Positions 1 through 17,423 of a stretch of DNA of 29,901 bases are shown here, piece by piece. Under the pieces are notes generated by a model. That model saw only the letters and a program-made list of their open reading frames with translations. It made no database searches and was not told the DNA's origin. The first letter of the stretch is position 1, and every line of letters starts with the position of its first letter. The stretch comes from a virus: positions 1 through 29,901 of IMG/VR virus record IMGVR_UViG_3300044684_000492, one strand, 5' to 3'. The position numbers were made by a program, and so were the translations under genes.

Positions 1-920
1 GCGTTGCCTTGCTGCTGCACCGGCGCCCACACCAGATCCATGAAGCCCGACACGCGAGCGAGCGTTTTCACGCGGCTCGTGACGCCCGGCTGATTCGGCA
101 CCGGCGCGCCGCCGATACGGAAGTCGATCTGCACGTCCGCGCGAACCGGTTCGCCCTGGATGTCTTCGATCGGTGCGTTGCCGAACGACGTCTGGACCGT
201 CAGCGTGCTGTCCTGCTCGATGTTGCCCAGCTCGATGTCCGTGTTACCGGCCAGACGAGCGAGTTCCGTCGAGCACGCCAGCGCCGCGTTGGCCGCCAGA
301 TTGTACAGACGCTTCTTGTTTTCGAGGTCGAAGTCCGCCTTCACGACTTCCGCGTCGACCGGATGCAGCTGGTCGGCCGTCAGGCTCGGGAAGTTGCGCT
401 GGACCCACTTCTTCACTTCGGCCTGGTAGACCGGCGTGTTGACGTCGCCCGTGGTACGGTAGTTCTCGACTTCGATGTTGCCGATGCGCACGTTCTGGAT
501 GGGCAGCGGCTCGCTCGAGCCTTCGAGAATCAGCGTGTGATACGCGACGCCCAGCTCGGGCAGTTGCTTGTTTTGAACGGCGACGACGATGGCCGACTTT
601 TCCAGCATGTCGGTTTGATCGAGGTCGATCGGGATCAGGGTGACGTTGTACGCGGGGCTGATCGCCTTCTCGTACTCACCCTTGAGGGCCGTGTTCAGCT
701 GAGCGATGATGTCGCTTTCCGGCGAACGCGACATGGCGTTCGGCGTAGCTGCCCAGAAGTCCTGCAAACGTGCGCGGGGTTGACGGGCTTGTTGTTGCTG
801 ATAACCCGCTTGCTGCCCGCCGGCTTGTTGCTGCTGCTCGTAGCGCTGTTGCGCGCCGCTCAGAGCTTGGCCCATGTTCGTTTGCTGGCCCTTTTCATTG
901 TCAGGCGTGTTCAGTGCCAT
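1..920 (-). CDS. Probable virion-type protein, C-terminus outside window
   Basis: Reading from ATG at 920 the frame stays open to base 1, so at least 306 residues are present and the C-terminus is missing. A sequence AAAGGAAA lies just upstream of this ATG, which decided the start; an in-frame ATG at 989 has no ribosome binding site. Residues 10-50 are Gln/Ala/Gly-rich and probably disordered (runs such as EQQQQAGGQQ and YQQQQARQP). From about residue 50 the protein becomes an ordinary mixed alpha/beta sequence starting with LQDFWAATPNAMSR. I do not recognise a family. A low-complexity leader ahead of a folded body is common in phage structural proteins, so the virion label is inference only. 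It is separated from the next gene by about 240 bases. Confidence 0.75.
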   Translation of the reverse strand, partial: MALNTPDNEKGQQTNMGQALSGAQQRYEQQQQAGGQQAGYQQQQARQPRARLQDFWAATPNAMSRSPESDIIAQLNTALKGEYEKAISPAYNVTLIPIDLDQTDMLEKSAIVVAVQNKQLPELGVAYHTLILEGSSEPLPIQNVRIGNIEVENYRTTGDVNTPVYQAEVKKWVQRNFPSLTADQLHPVDAEVVKADFDLENKKRLYNLAANAALACSTELARLAGNTDIELGNIEQDSTLTVQTSFGNAPIEDIQGEPVRADVQIDFRIGGAPVPNQPGVTSRVKTLARVSGFMDLVWAPVQQQGN

Positions 921-1115
921 GGCTTTGTTTCCTTTCATTTCAATGAGTTTAATGATCGCGCGAACACCATTCTCTTGCAATAGTGTCATAGGTGTGATAT
1001 GTGTCCATTTTAAGTTTGGATCACACCACGCTCTCTCCTTGGTAAAGCAAATTGCAAAGTTGCGGTACTACGGGGGTTTCGAACTGACCCCATAGTCACC
1101 CATGGAATCAGGCAA

Positions 1116-5583: not shown

Positions 5584-5714
5584 TTCAGATCCTTCTTTCT
5601 TTTAAGTTGATAGTACCGAACATAGCGGTGCCAGTCGATCTCAATCACCTTGATCGCTGACACCACCGCTGCGATGACAATCCCCGTACTAAGCGGCCTT
5701 CTGGTTACCTTCAT
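5580..5714 (-). CDS. 44-residue single-pass membrane protein
   Basis: ATG at 5714 lies inside the last codons of the polymerase gene in another frame; the stop overlaps the GTG of the next mini-gene. There is one hydrophobic segment (STGIVIAAVVSAIKVI, about residues 9-24) after a basic start (MKVTRRP) and before a basic, Tyr-rich tail (RYVRYYQLKRKK). Positive charge on both sides makes the topology unclear. No clear ribosome binding site, so reinitiation after the polymerase stop is the likely mode of translation. Together with 5488-5583 it forms a pair of tiny membrane proteins. Confidence 0.5.
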   Translation of the reverse strand: MKVTRRPLSTGIVIAAVVSAIKVIEIDWHRYVRYYQLKRKKDLK

Positions 5715-7920
5715 AGTAGTCGCTCACCAGCTGATTATTCTTATTGGTGTGCACGTAAAAGCCGAGCGATTCCAAGATGATGTAAAACACGTTCACCGTA
5801 TCGATCTGGATCTTACGCACATCCACCACCCCGAGGATCTCAGGCGGGATCCCGATAGATTGAATCACTTGCTCCGGCACGTGGAAGGTCGTGATACCTT
5901 TCTTACCGTTGGCCACACACCAACCCGCGATCTTCTCAGCCAGTGCCCGGTCTTCCATGCTCGTAAGCCACGCCTTCAGCTTCGTAGCACTATCGAGCGT
6001 GACTGAGATTTTCACCGACATGTAAGGCGGCTCTGGCACGATACCATACTTGGTACCGAAGGTCGCATTCCAGAACGTGTAGTGCGCGAAGTTCGACTTC
6101 TCCGGCGGCAACGTGTACGACTCCGCAGTCTTGATCTGACCCATGCGAAAGTACTCGTAGCTATTGCGCACCATAATCGAGTCACGGATGTCATGCTCAA
6201 GCGTTGCAATCTCATCCAGATACTTCGTGATGGAGAGCTTCTTCTCTTGCATGATCGTGTCCATGATTTCGATCATCATGGCCTTCGCTTTCGCCATCAC
6301 CACGCGCGGCGCATTGGAGGACTTCAGGTGCACGCCCTTGATCTCTTCCTTCTGTGCCGAGTAGAGGTTACCTTCTTGGCAGCCGATCGAGGCGAAGTAG
6401 TGCTTCGCCACCTGCGTCGGCACGAACACGTCGAACTTGTACTCGTTCTTCATGGCGACCTGGAACATCCGCTTCTCTTCGATGCCGAGGTTCGCAGACA
6501 TGCGCGCCAAAAGGTGTGTGACCGTTTGCGCAGCCAAGAAGATCATGGTCGCTGCCACACCAGAGGAGCGCGCATCGTAACCGTAACGACCCTTGTTGTA
6601 CCAGATCACCCAGTCTTGCACCGTGAAAATCGTCGAGTCGGTGTCGCCCATCAGTGCCGAGCGACGGATCGATTCGGGGAACTTCGCCAGACTTGCCGGC
6701 ACGTTCTTCGTCACCCAGAACCCCCGAATGAGATTCTGATACGCTGTCACGGTGTTCGCCACGTTCGTGACCGTCGCCGCCAGCATCAGACAGACTTCGG
6801 CGTTTTCCGTATCCGACACCTTGAAGCCACGCATCTCGTTGGGCAGCAACTGCACAGCAAGAGCCGTATGGTCTTCGAAGCTGTTCTTGATGACGGCCAT
6901 CACTTCCTTAAAATCCACATCGGTGCGTCGCGGCCAAGCGCAGGCACGTGCATAATCGACATCTTCCGCAGCGATCTGTGTGACCGATGCCGGAATCACT
7001 GGCTTCGAGAGCGAATCAATAAAGCCATACACCACGTCGTGGTTGTATTTCATCAGGTGATAGAGGTCACCCGTGTAGACGAAGGCGCTGCGCTGAATGT
7101 CGGTGAGCTTGGTCACCAGCACATGAATCAGATCCATGTGCGCTTCGTTGTTCCAGTAGAGCTGGGTCGAATACCGAATGCACTCCATGGTCTCTTCGAT
7201 CGTGGGGTGCCTTATGCCGAACTCGGCCATCGTCGCGGCAATCTTCTCGTAATCGGAATTACTCACGATCGAGATGATATTGTTCTTCACCACTTCGGGC
7301 GACCAGTAATGCCGGTTGCCATTCAGGAATTTCTCGTTGTTCGCCGACCCATAACCCGCCGTAATCCGGCAGTTGGAGGTGAGCGTCGAATGGCTCGTCT
7401 TGTTAAAGAGCGGCGTGGAGGCTGAGACGTGTGCACCCGAACACGCGTTGTTCGAGAGCTTACGGTTCGTCTGCTCGTTATCTTTCAGGATTTCGAGAAT
7501 CTTGTTGCCTTCCATCCGCGCCTTGAACATCTCTTTCTTAGCAACGGAACGGCCCTTGACGTTTTCGTCAATGAAAAGTGCCAGGAGCGACTGCTTCTGA
7601 GACGCCGGAATATACGTGGTAAACGTAGGAGCAATAATCTCGTCATTGCGAATACTCTCGCCGATGTAGCGGCTAAGTGTGCATTCCTTCAGTTCCCGGT
7701 CGCCTACTGCGTTGCGCTCCAGGTACTTGACCATCGGGTCCTTGAAGGGGAATTGACCGTCCGGTTGCAGTTGACGTTTCACGAACGCCATTGCGGTTTG
7801 CTCGTCCGCACCCGTCATGATGCACAGGTACGCGCAGACTTGTTTCATGTAATGCTTGAAGACTTCCAAGTCCCGTTGGTACTCTTTCACGGGGAGGACA
7901 AACGGATTGTCAAACGCCAT
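5689..7920 (-). CDS. Family B DNA polymerase, palm/fingers/thumb part (phiKZ-like)
   Basis: 743 residues; ATG 7920 preceded by AGGAG. Motif C of family B polymerases is exact: GDTDSTIF with the catalytic DTDS at residues 426-429. A diverged motif B (KLSNNACSG from Lys154; canonical Kx3NSxYG) sits at the end of a charged fingers helix and is followed by SASTPLFNKTSHSTLTSNCR, the form I associate with phiKZ-like phage polymerases. No 3'-5' exonuclease motifs and no recognisable motif A (DxxSLYPS) precede motif B. This fits the split arrangement reported for these phages, where the exonuclease and remaining active-site part are on another gene, outside this window. The protein would replicate phage DNA. 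The family call is firm; completeness of the active site is uncertain. Confidence 0.88.
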   Translation of the reverse strand: MAFDNPFVLPVKEYQRDLEVFKHYMKQVCAYLCIMTGADEQTAMAFVKRQLQPDGQFPFKDPMVKYLERNAVGDRELKECTLSRYIGESIRNDEIIAPTFTTYIPASQKQSLLALFIDENVKGRSVAKKEMFKARMEGNKILEILKDNEQTNRKLSNNACSGAHVSASTPLFNKTSHSTLTSNCRITAGYGSANNEKFLNGNRHYWSPEVVKNNIISIVSNSDYEKIAATMAEFGIRHPTIEETMECIRYSTQLYWNNEAHMDLIHVLVTKLTDIQRSAFVYTGDLYHLMKYNHDVVYGFIDSLSKPVIPASVTQIAAEDVDYARACAWPRRTDVDFKEVMAVIKNSFEDHTALAVQLLPNEMRGFKVSDTENAEVCLMLAATVTNVANTVTAYQNLIRGFWVTKNVPASLAKFPESIRRSALMGDTDSTIFTVQDWVIWYNKGRYGYDARSSGVAATMIFLAAQTVTHLLARMSANLGIEEKRMFQVAMKNEYKFDVFVPTQVAKHYFASIGCQEGNLYSAQKEEIKGVHLKSSNAPRVVMAKAKAMMIEIMDTIMQEKKLSITKYLDEIATLEHDIRDSIMVRNSYEYFRMGQIKTAESYTLPPEKSNFAHYTFWNATFGTKYGIVPEPPYMSVKISVTLDSATKLKAWLTSMEDRALAEKIAGWCVANGKKGITTFHVPEQVIQSIGIPPEILGVVDVRKIQIDTVNVFYIILESLGFYVHTNKNNQLVSDYYEGNQKAA

Positions 7921-7974: not shown

Positions 7975-8015
7975 TGACGGCATAAAAAAAGGGGAGGAGT
8001 CCGAAGACCCCTCCC
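7975..8015 (-). terminator. Terminator with UUCG loop, T-run and TTTATGCCGT tail
   Basis: Read on the minus strand, a 10-bp stem with a UUCG loop (bases 7992-8015; one G.U pair that is only compatible with minus-strand RNA) is followed by CTTTTTTTATGCCGT. It is a good intrinsic terminator for the small genes upstream and insulates the polymerase. The ATGCCGT end after the T-run is shared with four other hairpins in the window. Confidence 0.85.
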
Positions 8016-8383: not shown

Positions 8384-8809
8384 TTAACTCGACGAGGAGA
8401 GCGGCGTAATCGAGACACTGATTCGGTTGTAGCCGTTGGCGATCAGGGCGTTTTGCACACCCGTCACATCAGCAGCCGTGACACCGGAGATGATGGCGGT
8501 GATGACCTGGTTGGTCGTGGCGGTGATCGTGGACTCGTTGACCCAGGGCATGCCGATCGCGGAGATCTGGCCGCTCTGTGTGCGGATCTTGATCCAGTTG
8601 TACTGCGTGGGGTCGTTGGGGACGTTTTGTCCAGCCTGCTGCAGGTACGGATACACGGCAGCATGCATGCCAACGATGTCAACCAGCTGGGCGGCCGACT
8701 GCGGGTCCAGCAACGACAGGACCGTGACATTTTCAAAGTTATTGCCAAGCGCCGGAGCTGCGTACGTGTCGAAGCTCAGCAGCTGTCCAAGCTGATAGGG
8801 GTACGTCAT
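8384..8809 (-). CDS. Probable virion-type protein, unknown
   Basis: 141 residues from ATG 8809. The sequence is Ser/Thr/Ala/Ile-rich with few charges (TYPYQLGQLLSFDTYAAPAL at the N-terminus, ITATTNQVITAIISGVTAAD near residue 100) and ends in SSSS. The second half reads as alternating strand and helix. Low charge and Thr/Ala-rich strands resemble phage structural proteins such as the one at 27799-29508, which also begins with few charges. I cannot name a family. It lies directly downstream of a strong terminator (8820-8845) and has no obvious promoter in the few bases between, so its own promoter may lie inside the upstream gene. Confidence 0.75.
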   Translation of the reverse strand: MTYPYQLGQLLSFDTYAAPALGNNFENVTVLSLLDPQSAAQLVDIVGMHAAVYPYLQQAGQNVPNDPTQYNWIKIRTQSGQISAIGMPWVNESTITATTNQVITAIISGVTAADVTGVQNALIANGYNRISVSITPLSSSS

Positions 8810-8819
8810 GGAAGCTCGC

Positions 8820-8845
8820 AAAAAAAAAAAGACGCTCCAGCGTCT
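8820..8845 (-). terminator. Intrinsic terminator with 11-base T-run
   Basis: On the minus strand AGACGC-TGGA-GCGTCT is followed by a continuous run of T (bases 8820-8830). This is a textbook Rho-independent terminator a few bases after the stop of the 8852-9241 gene, ending the transcription unit that runs down from 12804. Unlike five other hairpins in the window it lacks the ATGCCGT tail. Confidence 0.9.
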
Positions 8846-8851
8846 ATCCCT

Positions 8852-9241
8852 TTAGAAGGGGAAATACTGGAGCATCACATCGTTATCGACGAATTGCAGA
8901 AAAGCGAAGTCCATGTTCGTTGGCATGTGGCTCTGGGGAAACAAGCCATGCTCCATCAAACGACTGAACAACGCTCTTGCAAAAACATGGACATGGTACT
9001 GCACGCTCTGATACACGTCCTCATAATCAGGACCGCGCAGTTCCGGAATCTCTATACGATTGAAGAAAGGCAACGTCAAGACGACATCCTCGTTGCCCTT
9101 CCAGTCCATGTAGACGTCGAAGCACTGCCGCACAATCTCCTCAAAGGCGGCAGGGCTGATGGTGTATTTTGCGAGTCCGGCCCGAAGGCCGGTGATCAGG
9201 TCAGCTACTGGAACTATCACGTGCTGGTGCGGGGGCATCAT
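8852..9241 (-). CDS. Unknown protein, member of the 8.8-12.8 kb array
   Basis: 129 residues from the first of two adjacent ATGs at 9241, chosen because AGAGGA lies about 8 bases upstream; the start overlaps the end of the preceding gene. Mainly helical, with a middle strand pair (EDVVLTLPFFNRIEIPEL). It ends FVDNDVMLQYFPF, where the D-x-V-M-L strand matches the D-L-x-I ending of its neighbours at 10701, 11242, 11666 and 12415. This is the last gene before the terminator at 8820. Function unknown. Confidence 0.75.
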   Translation of the reverse strand: MMPPHQHVIVPVADLITGLRAGLAKYTISPAAFEEIVRQCFDVYMDWKGNEDVVLTLPFFNRIEIPELRGPDYEDVYQSVQYHVHVFARALFSRLMEHGLFPQSHMPTNMDFAFLQFVDNDVMLQYFPF

Positions 9242-10373
9242 TCTTATTTTCCTCTGCTGCACGTCGTGCATAATGCTCTTGGATGGTCTGGAAGTCCTGC
9301 TTCTCTTCCTTACTCCAGTCCCCATTCGCTTTTTCCCGTTCACGACGTTCATCGACAGCTCGCTGGGCTTCTTGAAACGGCTTGACCATGGTCTCCGGAT
9401 CAATCCGCTTATCAAGAGACTCCTGAACGGTTTTCTGAATATCAGAGTCCGTCCGGAACATGCCAGCAAACATCTGCTTGATTTCCTTCTCCCAAGCATC
9501 GATTGCCGACTCATCCACCGGCGGCTTGACGCTCACTTCGCTATCCGGCGTCGTGACCGTCGTCTTTCGGATGGCATCCGCTGCTGCCTGACTCTCGTGG
9601 AAGCGCTTGAACGCCCGTGCAAAACCACACAGGTATTCATGCGCCGGCATGCCAAGACTCGCATTCTCGGGTTTGAGCTTGCCGATCTCATAGATACCAG
9701 CCGTTCGATGGGCGATCGGCTGATGCTCCATGAAACCAGGCCCTTTGATCGGAATCGAATAGAGCTGCTGGTAGAAGTCCATATTGATCAGCGTGCCGCG
9801 CGGCCGGGCGTGCTCTGCCGGAAAGAATGCAACGCTGCCATCCTTGCCCCGCATCTTCCACACAAGCCCGTCTTCCCAGTTCTTCTGCTCGCGATGCAAA
9901 ATCTCCGGCACCCCGAGACGATCGACCAGCACATCCTGACCATGCATGCGGCGATACTGGTACGGCAAGAAGCCGTGCTGGTAGAGTCGGTGGTTCTGGA
10001 AGTCGTGGAACATCTCCAGTCCGATCCGATTGAGCAGTTCGGAGAAGCGGGTCGCCACCGCTTGATCGGTTTGCTCGGACCACTCGCGCTGCTTGTCGAA
10101 AGCGAGCACGCCGAGTTCGAGCTCCGCGTTCTTTTCATACGCGATGGCTTCGAAGATCGCGGCAAGGATTTCGTCCTCGTCGCAATCATGATGCTTCAGA
10201 AAGGTCACCAGGGGTTGGATGGCCTTGCTCACTTGCAGGATCATCTGTTCGCGCAAGCTCTCGAACAGCTCCTGACTGACACGCACTTGCTCGCGGAACA
10301 TTTGAAGTAATTCTCCGGATTCACGCAAACGCAGGAACTCCGGGTTTACGTTCGAAGAGGAGGATGCTGTCAT
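9201..10373 (-). CDS. Unknown 390-residue protein with helical charged C-terminus
   Basis: Start at ATG 10373, with AAGGAG 8 bases upstream, inside the end of the preceding gene. Residues 1-110 are helical (SGELLQMFREQVRVSQELFE). The middle (about 120-250) has short strands and many His/Tyr/Phe residues (FMEHQPIAHRTAGIYEIGKL). The last 130 residues are highly charged and probably extended helix, ending in an Ala/Pro/Ser tail (APAPARDSSSS). It is the only member of this run without the shared D-L-x-I C-terminal strand. A scaffold-like or virion role would fit the composition, but nothing in the sequence proves it. Confidence 0.8.
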   Translation of the reverse strand: MTASSSSNVNPEFLRLRESGELLQMFREQVRVSQELFESLREQMILQVSKAIQPLVTFLKHHDCDEDEILAAIFEAIAYEKNAELELGVLAFDKQREWSEQTDQAVATRFSELLNRIGLEMFHDFQNHRLYQHGFLPYQYRRMHGQDVLVDRLGVPEILHREQKNWEDGLVWKMRGKDGSVAFFPAEHARPRGTLINMDFYQQLYSIPIKGPGFMEHQPIAHRTAGIYEIGKLKPENASLGMPAHEYLCGFARAFKRFHESQAAADAIRKTTVTTPDSEVSVKPPVDESAIDAWEKEIKQMFAGMFRTDSDIQKTVQESLDKRIDPETMVKPFQEAQRAVDERREREKANGDWSKEEKQDFQTIQEHYARRAAEENKNDAPAPARDSSSS

Positions 10374-10731
10374 CACGATACTCCTTGAAACGGTAAAGCG
10401 GCTCACCGCGTGGGTTGTTGAGTTTGGCAGCCTGCCACTGGTTATAGATGGCATGACCGGCTTGGCAGATCAGTGTCTCCAGATGATCACGGGAAAACTG
10501 GCTCAGCGTATTATTACCGTAGAGCTCGTCGCCGTGTGCCATCCTTGCTGCTAAACTATACAGACCGTTATGATAAAAAATGTTTGCACCAAGCACCGTA
10601 TCGAACAGGGCTTGGTAAAACTGGTCGAGGTCGACAATAGGCATATTTGGATCCGCAGCCCAAGCCCGCAATACGCGAAGCTCAAGCGGCGAATCCAAGA
10701 TCACATGTCGCGGGGGTACTCCGGTGTCCAT
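10321..10731 (-). CDS. Unknown protein, member of the 8.8-12.8 kb array
   Basis: 136 residues from ATG 10731, which has GGGAG about 10 bases upstream; a GTG at about 10703, overlapping the upstream stop, is an alternative. Both ends overlap neighbours. The core is helical (LDQFYQALFDTVLGANIFYH), and the protein ends with FKEYRDDSILLFERKPGVPA, which is the array's charged turn followed by a hydrophobic strand (D-S-I-L-L here). The 3' end encodes the ribosome binding site of the next gene. Function unknown. Confidence 0.7.
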   Translation of the reverse strand: MDTGVPPRHVILDSPLELRVLRAWAADPNMPIVDLDQFYQALFDTVLGANIFYHNGLYSLAARMAHGDELYGNNTLSQFSRDHLETLICQAGHAIYNQWQAAKLNNPRGEPLYRFKEYRDDSILLFERKPGVPAFA

Positions 10732-11231
10732 ACACGTTGCTCCCGGGGGCTCAACAAGCGGATGAAGATAAGCAGATCCCGGCCACTCCAACGCGGCAGG
10801 AAAGGCTCACCTGATCCTTCTTGAGCGATTTCGAATAAGCGCGTTCGCAGATGGTGAAAGAGAAACTTCTCGACTTCTTCTTCGATTTGTTCTGCCACCA
10901 TCTTGATTGCGCCGAGATTGTTCTGGGCGAATTCCAGATTGTAGAGCGCCACGGGCGAATGGTCGCCAAAGGTATCGTGATGGTGATCGAGCGCGAACTC
11001 GAAGTCATTCATCACTTTCGCTGCGAGGCCACGCGAATAGCGATGTCCCGTATACACATTGGCCGTGTAGGGACTGTTGAACGAACGCGTGATGATCGCT
11101 TCTTTGATGAGGTCTTTCAGGCCGTTTTCGTAGAAGCGAAAGAGCGGCCGATAAGTGTCGTACTCGTCAAGGAGGTCACGCGCATCCATGATGAGTGGTT
11201 GCATTTTCGCCTCGATTACAATGAGTTCCAT
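10701..11231 (-). CDS. Unknown protein, member of the 8.8-12.8 kb array
   Basis: 176 residues, ATG 11231 with AAGGGG at the right distance and 10 bases after the upstream stop. Mostly helical; residues 60-110 contain SPYTANVYTGHRYSRGLAAK and a His-rich patch (DHHHDTFGDH) that could bind metal, though no known metal-site pattern is evident. The C-terminus has WSGRDLLIFIRLLSPREQ, the clearest example with DGRDLVI at 12415 of the shared ending. Function unknown. Confidence 0.75.
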   Translation of the reverse strand: MELIVIEAKMQPLIMDARDLLDEYDTYRPLFRFYENGLKDLIKEAIITRSFNSPYTANVYTGHRYSRGLAAKVMNDFEFALDHHHDTFGDHSPVALYNLEFAQNNLGAIKMVAEQIEEEVEKFLFHHLRTRLFEIAQEGSGEPFLPRWSGRDLLIFIRLLSPREQRVWTPEYPRDM

Positions 11232-11241
11232 GAGAACCCCT

Positions 11242-11673
11242 TTAGACGACCTTGGGGATGATCGCGAGGTCGGGTCCATGAAGACGGTAATTGAAACCGT
11301 CGTGGTTGCTGAACGTGAGCGTAGGTAGGTGCTCACCCAATGTGTTCACGAGATCCGCAAAGAGATCCTCAGCCACCTGATGCGCCGTACGCTCGTCCAC
11401 CGAATGGTCCGTGAGAACCTTCTCGGTGAGAAAGAGCTGCCCGGCATTACGCATGTCGGACTGGCGCTCGGTGACCAACTCGTAGAGCAGCGTCTCGATG
11501 ACGAGGTCCGCGATCGGTCGCATCTGGTGGTTAGCCGAGACGTACACAGTGCGACTACCTTGACGGATCAGGGACACGGGCTGGATGAAACCGTTGCTGT
11601 TCCAGTACTCACCCAGTCGCTGCATCAGGACATTGCGGATGTCGCTTAACGAAACAAGAATGGTCTTACTCAT
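11242..11673 (-). CDS. Unknown protein, member of the 8.8-12.8 kb array
   Basis: 143 residues from ATG 11673, overlapping the last codons of the upstream gene. N-terminal strand and helix (ILVSLSDIRNVLMQRLGEYW), a central helix (ADLVIETLLYELVTER), and a final beta segment (LTFSNHDGFNYRLHGPDLAI) that ends in the array signature G-x-D-L-x-I. The order of a helical body and a terminal hairpin is the same as in the neighbouring array genes. No known family. Confidence 0.75.
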   Translation of the reverse strand: MSKTILVSLSDIRNVLMQRLGEYWNSNGFIQPVSLIRQGSRTVYVSANHQMRPIADLVIETLLYELVTERQSDMRNAGQLFLTEKVLTDHSVDERTAHQVAEDLFADLVNTLGEHLPTLTFSNHDGFNYRLHGPDLAIIPKVV

Positions 11674-12409
11674 AGTAGTCCAATTTGGTTCCCGTCAGGC
11701 GGTGGTACTCCAAGATTCGCCAATCGATCGACTTCTCGATGACGAGGTCGGTGTGGCTGCGTTTGAGGAAATGAATCACCCACGGGTTCTCCCCGCAGAA
11801 ACTCTTCACGTCATTGCGAATGCCGGAGACGATCTCGGTGATCTGATCGATGACGGCAGCGAAGATCGTGTTATCGATACGCTCATAGCGCGGAGTGTGG
11901 CTAAGCTTGAGCACGTCATCGTCGCGAACTTCGATGCGGTCCACGATGAAAGGCCCGTACAGATCCTGCGGCTGCTTCGGCGTCGAGCGATAGTCCGCCA
12001 TACCGTGCGACTCCACCACGTCCTTGACCGCGGCTTCGACGATACGCAGGGCGACGACCGGTAGTACCGGCCGGTAACTGAGGAACGGAATTTGCGTAAC
12101 GGACACGACGATGTTGCCATCGAGATCCATCACCGGTTGTAGCGGATCGATGTCTTCGATCGTGCGCACCACGTAGGTTTCTTTGCTCTTCTTGCGATCC
12201 ACCACTTTGTGCTGATGGTAGACGGCGACACCGTTCATTTTCATGACCGGCTCAGCGCGACCCCGGAAGTAGATGCCCGCTTCCGGTTGCAACAGATACT
12301 GCCCGACGACCGCCTCGATCATCGAAGCCGTGGGCATTGGATCGGCGCGCATCTGTTTGACGCAGGGGATGTCAAGGAAGATGCCTTTGTTCTCGACGTG
12401 CTTGCCCAT
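11666..12409 (-). CDS. Unknown 247-residue protein, array member
   Basis: ATG 12409 lies 3 bases after the upstream stop; there is no good ribosome binding site, so coupling is likely. Contains a strand-rich middle (VMKMNGVAVYHQHKVVDRKK, then IVVSVTQIPFLSYRPVLPVV) and a helical second half. Near the C-terminus HFLKRSHTDLVIEKSIDW carries the T-D-L-V-I version of the array signature, but here about 25 more residues follow. The N-terminal 100 residues have no counterpart in the shorter array members, so this may be a fusion or the ancestral longer form. Function unknown. Confidence 0.75.
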   Translation of the reverse strand: MGKHVENKGIFLDIPCVKQMRADPMPTASMIEAVVGQYLLQPEAGIYFRGRAEPVMKMNGVAVYHQHKVVDRKKSKETYVVRTIEDIDPLQPVMDLDGNIVVSVTQIPFLSYRPVLPVVALRIVEAAVKDVVESHGMADYRSTPKQPQDLYGPFIVDRIEVRDDDVLKLSHTPRYERIDNTIFAAVIDQITEIVSGIRNDVKSFCGENPWVIHFLKRSHTDLVIEKSIDWRILEYHRLTGTKLDYYE

Positions 12410-12414
12410 GTTGG

Positions 12415-12804
12415 TTATACGAATTGAAGGGGTTGGGGAATGAAGTACATGATCACGAGATCGCGACCATCTAAAGCGACTACCAGTTCTGCATCCCCAT
12501 ACACAACTGGTACACGGATCAGATGTTTGAAACACTCGAACAGCGTGGGACGCTGCATCACCGCCTGCAGGTTGTGATAGATCATCCGATAGCCATAGCC
12601 CTCGTCGTGACCAATCACATTGCATTGGGTATTCACCCAGATGAGCTCGCGGATGATGAACGCGAGCGCCTGCTCATAATCGAAACCATGGGCGCCATAC
12701 GGCTCCCAGATCTCTTCGATATACGGCCTGAGGTACTCACGAAAGGAGAGCACATCCTGGACCAGTACTGCCTGTTTGTGCATTGACACGCCGCGTTTAA
12801 GCAT
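12415..12804 (-). CDS. Unknown protein, first member of the 8.8-12.8 kb array
   Basis: 129 residues from ATG 12804, with AAGGAG 7-8 bases upstream; a second in-frame ATG follows at 12783. Helical body (SFREYLRPYIEEIWEPYG, then EQALAFIIRELIWV) and a final hairpin YGDAELVVALDGRDLVIMYF, the fullest form of the signature that ends most genes of this run. It is the first gene after the terminator and candidate promoter at 12841-12894, and so the likely head of a transcription unit running to 8820. Confidence 0.75.
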   Translation of the reverse strand: MLKRGVSMHKQAVLVQDVLSFREYLRPYIEEIWEPYGAHGFDYEQALAFIIRELIWVNTQCNVIGHDEGYGYRMIYHNLQAVMQRPTLFECFKHLIRVPVVYGDAELVVALDGRDLVIMYFIPQPLQFV

Positions 12805-12909: not shown

Positions 12910-12987
12910 TGGCAGAGGGAGAAGGATTCGAACCTTCGAATGGCGGAATCAAAATCCGCTGCCTTAGACCAGCTTGGCGACCCCCCT
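12910..12987 (-). tRNA. tRNA-Gln (anticodon TTG)
   Basis: Complete cloverleaf on the minus strand. Acceptor AGGGGGG pairs with TCCCTCT, discriminator G and an encoded CCA (12910-12912). The anticodon loop TTTTGAT has anticodon TTG, and the T-loop is TTCGAAT. Two G.U pairs are present in the acceptor. It is the last tRNA of the array, just ahead of the terminator at 12865. Confidence 0.9.
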
Positions 12988-13002
12988 ACAGACAGCAATG
13001 CA

Positions 13003-13221
13003 CTACACCGGCACGACGTCGACGGCCAGATCGTTGAAACCCGTGACCTGGCGGAACGCCGGGATGTCGGCAATGGCTTCTTCTTCCGTCTGGTACTGCT
13101 TAGCGCGCTTAGCGCCATCCAGACCGAAGACTGTGCCCGGCACGATACCCGTTTCTTCCGGTTGGTAATACTCACGGCAAACTGCACCGCTACGATGGAT
13201 CTTTGCAGCAAGCACAAACAT
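13003..13221 (-). CDS. Small unknown protein inside the tRNA array
   Basis: 72 residues from ATG 13221, with TAGGG a few bases upstream. The sequence looks like a real small globular protein: a strand and turn start (MFVLAAKIHRSGAVCREYYQ), a charged middle (GAKRAKQYQTEEEAIADI) and a hydrophobic C-terminus (FNDLAVDVVPV). Length is short and no family is recognised. It sits between tRNA-Gln and the degenerate tRNA-like gene on the same strand, so it is probably co-transcribed with the tRNAs. An AACTTTATAG element starts 10 bases before its ATG. Confidence 0.65.
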   Translation of the reverse strand: MFVLAAKIHRSGAVCREYYQPEETGIVPGTVFGLDGAKRAKQYQTEEEAIADIPAFRQVTGFNDLAVDVVPV

Positions 13222-13275
13222 GATGCTACCCTATAAAGTTAATTCAGGGCTAGCTCGTGCTATGCCTCAATTAAC

Positions 13276-13353
13276 TGGCCCCTTGGGGTGGATTTGAACC
13301 ACCGACACACCACCATTCGAGGTGGCCGCTCTACCAGGCTGAGCTACCGCGGG
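13276..13353 (-). tRNA. Degenerate tRNA-like gene, isotype uncertain (Ser CGA or Arg TCG)
   Basis: The D arm (GCTC...GAGC), T arm (GGTGG-TTCAAAT-CCACC), discriminator G and encoded CCA are all present. The acceptor stem CCCGCGG/CCAAGGG has two central mismatches. The anticodon stem only pairs fully (CCACC/GGTGG) if the loop is 6 bases (TCGAAT) with two unpaired bases before the stem; a normal 7-base loop breaks the stem. There is no long variable arm, so a functional tRNA-Ser is unlikely. It may be a decaying or very atypical tRNA. Confidence 0.5.
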
Positions 13354-13363
13354 ATTGAAACCA

Positions 13364-13440
13364 TGGCGCGGTGTACGGGACTTGAACCCGTGACCCCCGG
13401 CGTGACAGGCCGGTGCGCTAACCAGCTGCGCTAACACCGC
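13364..13440 (-). tRNA. tRNA-Asp (anticodon GTC)
   Basis: Acceptor GCGGTGT pairs perfectly with ACACCGC; anticodon arm CCGGC-CTGTCAC-GCCGG gives GTC; T-loop TTCAAGT; discriminator G; CCA encoded. Ten bases from the preceding tRNA-like gene. Confidence 0.95.
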
Positions 13441-13455
13441 AAACTACAAAAACGA

Positions 13456-13531
13456 TGGTGCACCGTGCGGGATTCGAACCCGCGTACCCGCCGTGAAAGG
13501 GCGGTGTCCTAGGCCTCTAGACGAACGATGC
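13456..13531 (-). tRNA. tRNA-Glu (anticodon TTC)
   Basis: Acceptor GCATCGT/ACGGTGC with one G.U pair; anticodon loop CTTTCAC gives TTC; T-loop TTCGAAT; discriminator A and encoded CCA. Confidence 0.93.
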
Positions 13532-13548
13532 GCACTACAACAAAAGCT

Positions 13549-13639
13549 TGGCAGAGGGAGTGGGATTCGAACCCACGGGTAACCGAAGCCACCGCCGGAT
13601 TTCGAGTCCGGTACCTTAAACCAACTCAGCCATCCCTCT
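13549..13639 (-). tRNA. tRNA-Ser (anticodon CGA)
   Basis: Acceptor AGAGGGA pairs with TCCCTCT; anticodon stem CCGGA/TCCGG with loop CTCGAAA gives CGA. A long variable arm (stem around GGTGGCTTCGG) confirms Ser. Discriminator G; CCA encoded. Confidence 0.95.
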
Positions 13640-13653
13640 ATACTGCAAACCTC

Positions 13654-13729
13654 TGGTACCCAGAACTGGACTTGAACCAGTGGCCCCCGCCTTATCAAGA
13701 CGGTGCTCTACCATCTGAGCTATCCGGGC
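13654..13729 (-). tRNA. tRNA-Ile (anticodon GAT)
   Basis: Acceptor GCCCGGA/TCTGGGT with two G.U pairs; anticodon stem CCGTC/GGCGG with loop TTGATAA gives GAT; T-loop TTCAAGT; discriminator A; CCA encoded. The 110 bases between this gene and tRNA-Asn (13730-13840) show no tRNA or ORF that I recognise. Confidence 0.93.
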
Positions 13730-13840
13730 GTAATCTACTCAGGCCAGTACACGCATAGGAAGTCCCCAACGCTTCGAGCGTGTTCGCCGACTTGATCGGG
13801 CTACACATGTACCGGACTGAATAGACTATTTGGAAATGAT

Positions 13841-13916
13841 TGGCTCCCCAGGCTGGACTTGAACCAGCGACCAACGGATTAACAGTCCGCTACTCTACCG
13901 ACTGAGCTACTAGGGA
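13841..13916 (-). tRNA. tRNA-Asn (anticodon GTT)
   Basis: Acceptor TCCCTAG/CTGGGGA; anticodon loop CTGTTAA between CGGA and TCCG gives GTT; T-loop TTCAAGT; discriminator G; CCA encoded. Confidence 0.95.
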
Positions 13917-13970
13917 ATCGTCATTCTCCGACAAACCATACAAGAATGCGGTATTTTTTTACGGTACTAC

Positions 13971-14047
13971 TGGTGCCGGCTGCAGGAATCGAACCCGCGA
14001 CCAACTGATTACAAATCAGCTGCTCTACCTGGCTGAGCTAAGCCGGC
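13971..14047 (-). tRNA. tRNA-Thr (anticodon TGT)
   Basis: Acceptor GCCGGCT pairs perfectly with AGCCGGC; anticodon stem CTGA/TCAG with loop TTTGTAA gives TGT; T-loop TTCGATT; discriminator A; CCA encoded. First tRNA of the array in transcription order, immediately after the hairpin at 14049-14101. Confidence 0.95.
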
Positions 14048-14944: not shown

Positions 14945-15211
14945 TTACGCAGGCACGCGCACGTTGTCGTAACGCGGCTGGTTGGCCGTCACGTAGTCGA
15001 CGATGGTCTGCATGTTCACGAACTTCTCGGCGTCTTCGTCGGCGATTTCCATATGGAACTCGTCTTCGACTGCCATGATCAGTTCGACCGTATCCAGGCT
15101 GTCGGCGCCCAGATCGTCCACGAAGCTCGACTCCGGTTTGATCTCAGCTTCGGACACGCCGAGCTGTTCTGCGATAACGCGTTTGACGCGTGCTTCGATG
15201 CTATTGTCCAC
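14945..15211 (-). CDS. acpP: Acyl carrier protein
   Basis: 88 residues from GTG 15211, with a purine-rich GAGAG upstream. The fold is covered end to end. [10 protein letters not shown] carries the invariant DSL with Ser38, the site for the 4'-phosphopantetheine arm added by the host holo-ACP synthase, and the helix around [17 protein letters not shown] follows as in bacterial ACPs. The first 45 residues closely resemble proteobacterial fatty-acid ACPs. The last 15 ([13 protein letters not shown]) are basic and unlike the usual end. ACPs carry acyl chains in fatty acid synthesis. Here it sits ahead of a tRNA array and 12 bases after a histidine phosphatase gene, with no other lipid genes in view. 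Probably acquired from a host; the role in infection is unknown. Confidence 0.93.
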
Positions 15212-15223
15212 GATGGTCTCTCG

Positions 15224-15694
15224 TTAGAATTGCATTTGAAACTTCGAGACCGCAGTCTTGTGCTTCTCGAAGGTCACGACGTAAATCGAGCCGAAGTCGT
15301 TATCCGGCCACTGCTCCGGGTATTCCCCGGCTTGAAGCCCCAGACCCTTCATCAAAGCAGGAATCTTGCCGTGATGCCAGCAGACCACCACGTTTTGCCC
15401 CGCGTGGTGTCCCTCATGCACCAGGTTGTGACCCAGTTGCTCGGCCTCGTCGTCCATGTGCGTCAGGTCAATCATGGCCGTGGTGTGCACCATGAGCGGC
15501 ATGACGGTGAGAATCGGACGAATGCTTGCCTTCGTGCCTGCCGTGGCGTAAATCCAATCGGGCAGCCCGAAGTTCTTTGGAATGTACTGGGCGATGTAAT
15601 CCGCCCGTTTATAACCAACGTCCGCCAGACGCTGGTCCCCTTCCCAGTAGGGTTTCTCTGCATGGCGCAGGACAACGACTTTCTTCGGATGCAT
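15224..15694 (-). CDS. Histidine phosphatase superfamily protein
   Basis: 156 residues, ATG 15694. VVVLRHAEKP places the catalytic R10-H11 with the Glu-Lys that follows in the RHxEK form of branch 1 histidine phosphatases. A second active-site part is VVVCWHHGKIP (His107/108), and SIRP (Arg59) fits the middle phosphate-binding Arg. Family members form a phosphohistidine intermediate and remove phosphate from varied small molecules or proteins; the substrate cannot be read here. It is a short, complete version of the fold. It is followed 12 bases later by the acyl carrier protein gene, so the pair is likely co-expressed. No signal peptide, so cytoplasmic. Confidence 0.85.
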   Translation of the reverse strand: MHPKKVVVLRHAEKPYWEGDQRLADVGYKRADYIAQYIPKNFGLPDWIYATAGTKASIRPILTVMPLMVHTTAMIDLTHMDDEAEQLGHNLVHEGHHAGQNVVVCWHHGKIPALMKGLGLQAGEYPEQWPDNDFGSIYVVTFEKHKTAVSKFQMQF

Positions 15695-16274: not shown

Positions 16275-17270
16275 TCAGAGAACCACGCCTGTGTCAGTGG
16301 CCTGCTCAGCATCGGAGCTGATGGAGGTCTTCTTCAGGCGTGCGCCGGCTTCTGCGATGAATTCAGCGAGGACCTTGTCGAGGCCCTTCTTGACTTCGCC
16401 GAAGATGCCGTCGGACAGGATGTAGTGATACGGCGCCGCGAGCTTCTCGCCGCCGATCAATCCTTCGACGTAGCCGATCGTTTGCACTTCCGGGCGCTTC
16501 GAGAGCGACGGATCGAGCTCGTCGGTCGTGAGCGTGGCGATCGAGATCAGGTTGCCGATCTTCGTGAGGTCGGTACCCGTCTTGCCCGACACGAGCGTGA
16601 GTGCAGTCAGGCCCGGCGTATGCGAGGTGACCTTCTGGTAGTTGACCCAGTTGATCAGATCTTGCCCGTCGAGTTCGCGGTTGCGGCGGCTGAAAAGCAG
16701 CATGAGGGCTGCGACCAGTTCCTGGATGCGCTTGTCGACCGTGACGCGCGTCATGTCCGGCGAGTTCTGCAGGTAGAACACGACGACCGGCTTCTTACGC
16801 TTGGTCGAGATGTTCTCGTACGACTGCAGCGCTTTCAGCGTGTTTTCCGTCCACTTCTTCGTGCCGTCGTCGCCGACCACGATAGCGATGGTCAGCGCAT
16901 CTTGCGCGAGCAGCTCGCTCGTGATACAGGCCGCTGCGATCGGACCGGTGCCGCCACCGCCCGAGGACAGCACGATGTTCAGGTCCGCCGGCTTGAAGGT
17001 GTTCAGGATCTCGCGAGCACGCGGGGCGAGCTCTTCGTAGTTCTCGGCGCGATCGCCGCCCGAGCCGTCCTTGCCGTCGACGAGGTACAGACGATCTGCG
17101 GGGATGTTGCTGTGCAGGTTGGCCTTCGACGTATCGATGTAGATCGAGTCGAGATCGGCGTAGACGTTGTCGTCGCCGCGCACCATCTGCTCGACCTTGC
17201 TGCCGATGTTGATGCCGGCGCCACCGCACGAATACAGGCGAACACGGCCCAATTCACGTACATGACTCAT
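16275..17270 (-). CDS. phuZ: Tubulin/FtsZ-like GTPase PhuZ
   Basis: 331 residues from ATG 17270, with AAGGA upstream; a longer frame to 17312 lacks a ribosome binding site. The tubulin signature is present as SSGGGGTGPIAAA (residues 102-114), with the first nucleotide loop CGGAGINIGS (15-24) and a probable T7 catalytic loop around RELDGQDLINW (Glu199, Asp201, Asp204). The C-terminus is a short acidic-polar tail (SSDAEQATDTGVVL), in keeping with the tail that PhuZ uses for filament contacts. In phiKZ-like phages PhuZ forms a spindle that centres the phage nucleus and moves capsids to it. Length fits the family. Expressed from its own 150-base leader, divergent to the gene at 17424. Confidence 0.93.
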   Translation of the reverse strand: MSHVRELGRVRLYSCGGAGINIGSKVEQMVRGDDNVYADLDSIYIDTSKANLHSNIPADRLYLVDGKDGSGGDRAENYEELAPRAREILNTFKPADLNIVLSSGGGGTGPIAAACITSELLAQDALTIAIVVGDDGTKKWTENTLKALQSYENISTKRKKPVVVFYLQNSPDMTRVTVDKRIQELVAALMLLFSRRNRELDGQDLINWVNYQKVTSHTPGLTALTLVSGKTGTDLTKIGNLISIATLTTDELDPSLSKRPEVQTIGYVEGLIGGEKLAAPYHYILSDGIFGEVKKGLDKVLAEFIAEAGARLKKTSISSDAEQATDTGVVL

Positions 17271-17423
17271 GACTATTTTCCTTGAGGTTTGGGGATTGGT
17301 ATCTCCGCACATACCAGTGCAGAGACAGGTAAAAAACTACTGATGGTCTCCTTCCTGCAAAATCATTTGATAGGCTATTCAAGGTGATGATATATCGCCG
17401 TTTTCTTTTTAAGGAGGGCTTTT
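17271..17423. promoter_or_regulatory. Divergent promoter region, phuZ and 17424 gene
   Basis: These 153 bases must hold the promoters for both divergent genes. The middle is AT-rich (TGATATATCG near 17390). A GGTAT/ATACC hairpin with an 8-base loop at 17298-17315 lies in the phuZ leader about 30 bases before its start codon and could affect translation. No known sigma-70 promoter is evident by eye. Confidence 0.45.

Follow-up and report, generated by a model that had tools for sequence, protein, structure and literature searches.

The virus record IMGVR_UViG_3300044684_000492 of IMG/VR (29,901 bases, analysed here over its entire length and called the window) carries an array of seven minus-strand genes, A to G, which lies directly upstream of the genes for SH3DP (gene H) and the DNA polymerase, with an intergenic spacing of +10 to -53 bases. 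Profile comparisons show that the genes C-G encode paralogous, diverged members of a single small alpha/beta protein family, predicted models support the same fold for A, and B probably has it as well. It seems fairly likely to us that the array is a family of diverged paralogs acting as non-enzymatic protein-binding modules. A first-pass annotation of the sequence had noticed that six of these seven consecutive genes end with a charged turn and a hydrophobic strand; all of these genes are indeed there on the minus strand, and the six quoted strings lie where they were reported. The array genes are as follows:

12415-12804, minus strand: gene A, 129 amino acids (aa), shortened to 122 aa if the ATG at 12783 is taken as the start; C-terminal end ...VVALDGRDLVIMYFIPQPLQFV; an open reading frame (ORF) with AAGGAGAA upstream of 12804.
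11666-12409, minus strand: gene B, 247 aa; HTDLVIE and then a 22-aa tail; counterpart of gp9 of Burkholderia phage FLC9 (tblastn, E=5e-5) and of phiKZ gp043.
11242-11673, minus strand: gene C, 143 aa; C-terminal end GPDLAIIPKVV; 44-member ortholog group.
10701-11231, minus strand: gene D, 176 aa; SGRDLLIF and then a 20-aa tail; 30-member ortholog group.
10321-10731, minus strand: gene E, 136 aa; RDDSILLF hairpin; hhalign matches to F and G.
9201-10373, minus strand: gene F, 390 aa; N-terminal array domain and long C-terminal extension; hhalign matches to E and G.
9920-9941, minus strand: GQDVLVD, the internal signature of gene F, read from the translation.
8852-9241, minus strand: gene G, 129 aa; C-terminal end DNDVMLQYFPF; AlphaFold2 (AF2) model.

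Gene F had been taken as the exception among the seven, but its internal GQDVLVD, which was overlooked, brings the signature to seven of seven. The stretch QYRRMHGQDVLVDRL lies in the middle of this protein and is followed by ~200 extra residues, an extension that is mostly absent from relatives in other loci: the F ortholog of IMG/VR locus L011 has 164 aa, lacks the extension and carries GDLVLTRL near its end, while that of L013, called at 402 aa, is long like F itself. The wording that the genes end with the signature is loose, since the string precedes 22 residues in B and 20 in D.

The bodies of these proteins had been described as hard to align, yet they can be aligned through profiles of 30-73 orthologs per gene, which were collected from 80 related polymerase loci (A 31, B 73, C 44, D 30, E 43, F 56 and G 52 sequences, and 84 for the neighbouring H). 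Comparison of these profiles with hhalign gave 99.3% for E-F (P=1.2e-20), 98.5% for E-G (P=3.4e-15), 98.9% for F-G, 91.0% for D-G and 80.0% for D-F, against a highest value of 3.3% in 168 shuffled or reversed controls; weaker pairs were C-E (13.4%), B-C (13.5%) and C-F (10.0%). A wider network was built from 774 ORFs of the zone, which fell into 35 families of at least three members, and all 595 family pairs were compared twice, once forward and once after reversal of one of the two profiles. With a cut-off of P<0.003, 21 of the 595 pairs were linked forward and none reversed, and the 99 pairs that include SH3DP, PhuZ or the gp42-like head protein contributed none of the 21 links. Within the network, a single component unites C, D and E/F/G with 12 more families, among them families that contain LucasX gp50, 51, 52 and 54 and SURPRISE13 gp7 and gp8; the gene C profile matches the LucasX gp50 family at P=1.1e-8 and E/F/G at P=7.4e-4. 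SH3DP stands apart: H alone matches PF20287, the SH3DP hidden Markov model (HMM) matches no array group, and the SH3DP profile has no link to array families at P<0.003. No characterised relative of the array family was found in our searches of Pfam, NCBIfam, PHROGs or the PDB. In the family databases none of A-G exceeded a curated cut-off or, for PHROGs, E<0.001, the lowest E values being 0.015 in PHROGs and 0.13 in Pfam, and back-translated peptides of C and D retrieved no direct relatives in IMG/VR. The weak matches of the E/F/G and A profiles to PDB sequences, headed by troponin C (E 0.008) and AriA (0.4), were judged to be chance.

Predicted structures extend the family to gene A. The AF2 models of G (predicted local distance difference test, pLDDT, 91.7; predicted template modelling score, pTM, 0.87) and of the 122-aa form of A (pLDDT 93.2, pTM 0.86) have, as strands (E) and helices (H), E7-10 H13-22 H30-45 H51-56 H66-69 H73-97 E112-118 E121-126 and E2-10 H12-31 H36-52 E55-57 H63-75 H81-88 E99-105 E108-115, respectively. 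By DSSP, both follow one order, with a strand at the N-terminus, a pair of helices, a middle part that varies, one or two further helices and, at the C-terminus, a two-strand hairpin, so that the two folds are not the unrelated ones by which the first-pass annotation proposed to refute itself. The signature is the second strand of this hairpin together with its turn, and the N-terminal strand and the hairpin strands would form one sheet packed on the helices. Since the hairpin thus belongs to a common fold, we do not favour the alternative that these proteins are independent and have each retained a shared interaction surface. The relation between the two models was drawn from overlap of their Foldseek targets rather than from superposition, and 10 targets are common to the best-50 BFVD lists of A and G. 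All nine listed matches from loci that we examined (9/9) lie in arrays upstream of a polymerase; PhiPA3 038, 039 and 044 were placed by gene number, and 201phi2-1 gp74, Eowyn gp075 and gp083, Ea35-70 212, D3 (Aeromonas) gp239 and Moabite 028 indirectly, by exact length. A tenth match, a protein of 119 aa from EL, could be placed through its length in a related record. PhiPA3 gp039 belongs to the B family, so the gene A model reaches B by fold. Matches to the PDB were weak for both models, with a best Foldseek E of 1.5 and a best VIA Z of 5.0 for G (root-mean-square deviation, rmsd, 3.9 over 89 aligned residues) and a best VIA Z of 3.7 for A (rmsd 5.1, 90 aligned). The rows at Z 5.0, a zebrafish cap methyltransferase and EcoR124I, were set aside as lying in a range that the tool calls common, and the lack of a clear match does not prove the fold to be new.

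The duplications that gave rise to the array are old, not recent, and divergence is fast. When the labels E, F and G were placed on a tree of 134 sequences, 9 changes were needed, compared with a mean of 63 in 200 shuffles (minimum 56), which puts the duplications before the time at which these phages diverged from one another. Gene order is collinear in 61 of the 64 loci with at least 7.5 kilobases (kb) upstream, 21 of the 64 having exactly ABCDEFGH. Between the window and 15 hand-chosen relatives, mean identity was 32% for A, 36% for B, 28% for C, 41% for D, 34% for E, 28% for F and 36% for G, as against 51% for SH3DP and 61% for the polymerase. Repeated duplication with fast divergence, as first suggested, is therefore borne out for C-G by profile comparison and for A by predicted fold, and weakly for B, with the qualification that the duplications are old.

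The surroundings of the array bear on what it may do. The window very probably comes from the genome of a jumbo phage that bears chimallin and forms a nucleus, as in the Chimalliviridae, because a phiKZ-type polymerase, SH3DP, PhuZ and a partial chimallin are present in it. Its terminase large subunit has Burkholderia phage FLC9 as the closest named match (57% identity), and the polymerases of the two are 53% identical. The neighbouring features are:

3-1067, minus strand: chimallin (ChmA), which forms the shell of the phage nucleus; partial, cut by the left window edge; an open frame whose true start is not set (iterated ChmA profile, E=1.3e-92).
5689-7920, minus strand: phiKZ-type divergent family B DNA polymerase (Pfam PF20286, E=3.3e-240).
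7992-8015, minus strand: terminator-like hairpin between H and the polymerase (consensus scan).
8384-8809, minus strand: gene H, SH3DP, an SH3-fold protein associated with phage DNA polymerases; a neighbour and not a member of the array family (Pfam PF20287, E=1.3e-31).
8830-8845, minus strand: hairpin that resembles an intrinsic terminator, with a T run after it, in the G-H interval (consensus scan).
12910-14047, minus strand: tRNA cluster, eight ARAGORN calls, just upstream of gene A.
16275-17312, minus strand: PhuZ tubulin (phrog_4733, E=1.4e-86).

A comparable arrangement is found in every chimallin locus examined, where a run of small same-strand genes leads up to SH3DP, from ~3 in an EL-like phage to ~11 in Eowyn, and every one of the 53 IMG/VR loci that extend 7.5 kb or more from the start of the polymerase contains chimallin. 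When profiles were run against 13 named loci at a greater distance, chimallin was found in 10 and missed in SPN3US, AR9 and LPJP1; SPN3US has a 617-aa gene at the chimallin place, and AR9 and LPJP1 have distantly related polymerases and neither SH3DP nor array. SH3DP was found in 11 of the 13 and B in four (phiKZ, Eowyn, Yong XC31 and Moabite), the B HMM matching phiKZ043 at 1.3e-14 and Eowyn gp075 at 2.1e-14. All 52 weak E/F/G matches (E<=1) fell within 4.5 kb of the polymerase, compared with 740 of 1537 ORFs, an enrichment that is partly trivial since many of the outside ORFs are spurious.

All array groups carry a net negative charge. Conservation in the E/F/G alignment is strongest at positions occupied for the most part by hydrophobic or aromatic residues, Gly or Pro, with one Asp column (81 sequences) as the sole clearly conserved charged position in the top 22. 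These properties suggest that the array proteins are probably protein-binding modules rather than enzymes, in which each old paralog probably binds its own partner. We tentatively propose that they could be phage-nucleus adaptors, each of which would link its own cargo or replication proteins with the conserved import and shell machinery of PicA/Imp1 and ChmA; this is possible, if on the unlikely side, and such a role would explain both the strict retention of paralogs and their fast divergence. Taken further, the array may be a hidden core locus of nucleus-forming phages, with 3 to 11 old paralogous adaptors that would each license one cargo for entry into the nucleus and whose sequence has diverged beyond recognition while fold and position were kept, so that core-genome lists would have passed over them, a proposal that we hold to be doubtful. 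Import-targeting residues differ among chimallivirus species (PMC12908238), which fits fast-evolving specificity factors. The genome context (chimallin, PhuZ) is consistent with the earlier suggestion that such arrays may be nucleus-associated.

Several observations weigh against this interpretation of the array, in its family part or its functional part. A hairpin model made from E/F/G, with its threshold at the 95% point of shuffled sequences, scored above threshold in 19 of 30 D sequences, as opposed to 2 of 31 for A, 7 of 73 for B, none of 44 for C and 1 of 84 for the control gene H, so that for A, B and C the signature, taken as a bare motif, does not exceed chance. Gene A is unlinked by sequence (best P 0.0075, within the range of the reversed controls), the link of B is marginal (P 0.0034, the best reversed value being 0.0065), and C compared with the non-member H gave 10.3% in hhalign, near the C-E value. 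Most of the BFVD matches are weak, with a TM score of 0.4-0.6. The E/F/G profile matched none of the 13 distant named loci at E<=1e-3, so that membership at that distance rests on position, B and fold matches, and the co-occurrence with chimallin is biased by the choice of loci by polymerase similarity. Our literature searches found no expression, localisation or interaction data on array genes. The failure of the bare motif in A, B and C is also what would be expected if these were unrelated small genes with look-alike C-termini by chance; such an explanation is highly improbable in view of the whole-protein profile homology of C-G, with zero matches in reversed controls, and of the matching predicted folds of A and G. 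For D-G it has been refuted, and for C it has very little probability; A and B may still be such cases.

The array adjoins the polymerase and could serve replication instead, for example as a hetero-oligomer of processivity or loading factors that works with SH3DP and the polymerase, which is of a class proposed to lack a classical clamp. The array is fixed in position upstream of SH3DP and the polymerase in all chimallin loci examined, knock-downs of SH3DP (phiKZ049) and of the polymerase (phiKZ050) each lower plaques (PMC12571901), and SH3DP has been proposed as a possible polymerase subunit (PMC7824862). We nevertheless regard such replisome accessories as a doubtful reading, as the array means of 28-41% identity indicate faster divergence than in SH3DP and the polymerase, a gene number of ~3 (EL-like) to ~11 (Eowyn) is unusual for a fixed replisome, and terminator-like hairpins separate G from H and H from the polymerase, although seven such sites in the region compared with 4.5 expected are no proof of terminators. 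Host-takeover factors, which the first-pass annotation had also raised, or anti-defence factors, diversified in an arms race, would likewise be small, acidic, fast-diverging and without known relatives, as the array proteins are; accessory anti-defence genes tend to come and go, whereas each paralog here is old and conserved in order, in a block that adjoins core replication and nucleus genes, and this origin is unlikely. Factors that assemble the shell or spindle by acting on ChmA or PhuZ would suit the fact that most arrays begin beside PhuZ or a gp42-like gene and finish before the polymerase and ChmA, and they are distinctly unlikely, given that PhiPA3 gp39 and gp42-gp45 are unnamed in the main text of a ChmA/RecA proximity-labelling study (PMC10643120), a search that did not include gp38, gp40 and gp41. 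Between nucleus adaptors and replisome accessories the evidence is undecided: divergence faster than that of the polymerase and SH3DP, variable gene number and chimallin co-occurrence favour the former and polymerase adjacency the latter, neither being decisive.

Some features beside the array were observed in passing. Within the tRNA cluster, a tRNA with a four-base anticodon (cgaa; 13276-13353, minus strand; ARAGORN) could represent either an unusual tRNA or an erroneous call, and the tRNA-Gln at 12910-12987 (minus strand) is 96% identical to an FLC9 stretch annotated as a hypothetical protein, with the polymerases only 53% identical. When the DNA of the array region was compared with named phages, this tRNA-Gln stretch alone matched, among the 20 listed of 47 matching records. 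An acyl carrier protein gene adjoins a gene with a VLRHAEKP motif, histidine-phosphatase-like by reading (14945-15211 and 15224-15694, minus strand), and a similar acyl carrier/RHAE gene pair occurs again in loci L011 and L050, the latter having two RHAE genes. In Pseudomonas phage vB_PQ1 (L103), the annotation splits core genes (polymerase, PhuZ, shell protein, RNA polymerase) into many fragments, probably because of sequencing errors in the record.

The closest named counterpart of the array is in FLC9 (LC667451), where gp4-gp10, upstream of SH3DP (gp3) and the polymerase (gp2), reproduce the array with its gene order unchanged. Orthologs of all of A-G were found there, annotated only as hypothetical, and the E ortholog (4398-4928 of L003, minus strand) is unannotated, the plus-strand gp6 having been called over it instead. 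SH3DP, though a direct neighbour of similar size to the array proteins, belongs to a different family. In better-studied phages the positional equivalents are phiKZ gp043-gp048, PhiPA3 gp038-gp045 and 201phi2-1 gp74-gp80. Of these, phiKZ gp043 is a homolog of B, E/F/G are unrecognisable by sequence in phiKZ, and each of the six phiKZ array proteins searched falls in a separate PHROG of unknown function. Going by the main texts, the core-gene table itself being a supplement, the array genes seem to be absent from published core-gene lists, which suggests that ortholog-based core genomes may miss a conserved block in which position and fold are kept and similarity is lost. Searches by locus tag for phiKZ043-048 returned no literature and no mention in the phiKZ proteomics main texts searched, and those by gp number returned nothing on the phiKZ array genes among the matches listed. 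Some of the non-conserved, cargo-specific Imp factors reported from a phiKZ import screen possibly lie in the gp046-048 range. The hits of a phiKZ knock-down screen include 042, 049, 050, 052, 054 and 055, and the relevant section lists none of 043-048, without stating that they were tested (PMC12571901). JADA (phiKZ_124), an activator of Avs5, was dropped as a candidate relative because its locus lies elsewhere (PMC12931631).

How nucleus-forming phages select proteins for entry into the compartment is described as an open question (PMC12908238), and the diverged paralog set between PhuZ and the polymerase and ChmA (phiKZ gp043-048 and counterparts) offers a candidate list of cargo- or replication-specific factors. 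PicA is phiKZ069 and is encoded elsewhere in the genome than the array counterparts (PMC12571901). The analogy that we propose is with phiKZ PicA/Imp1 and Imp2-Imp6, in which, as two reports describe (PMC13282480; PMC12908238), folded cargo is recognized selectively and in a species-specific manner by several phage proteins.

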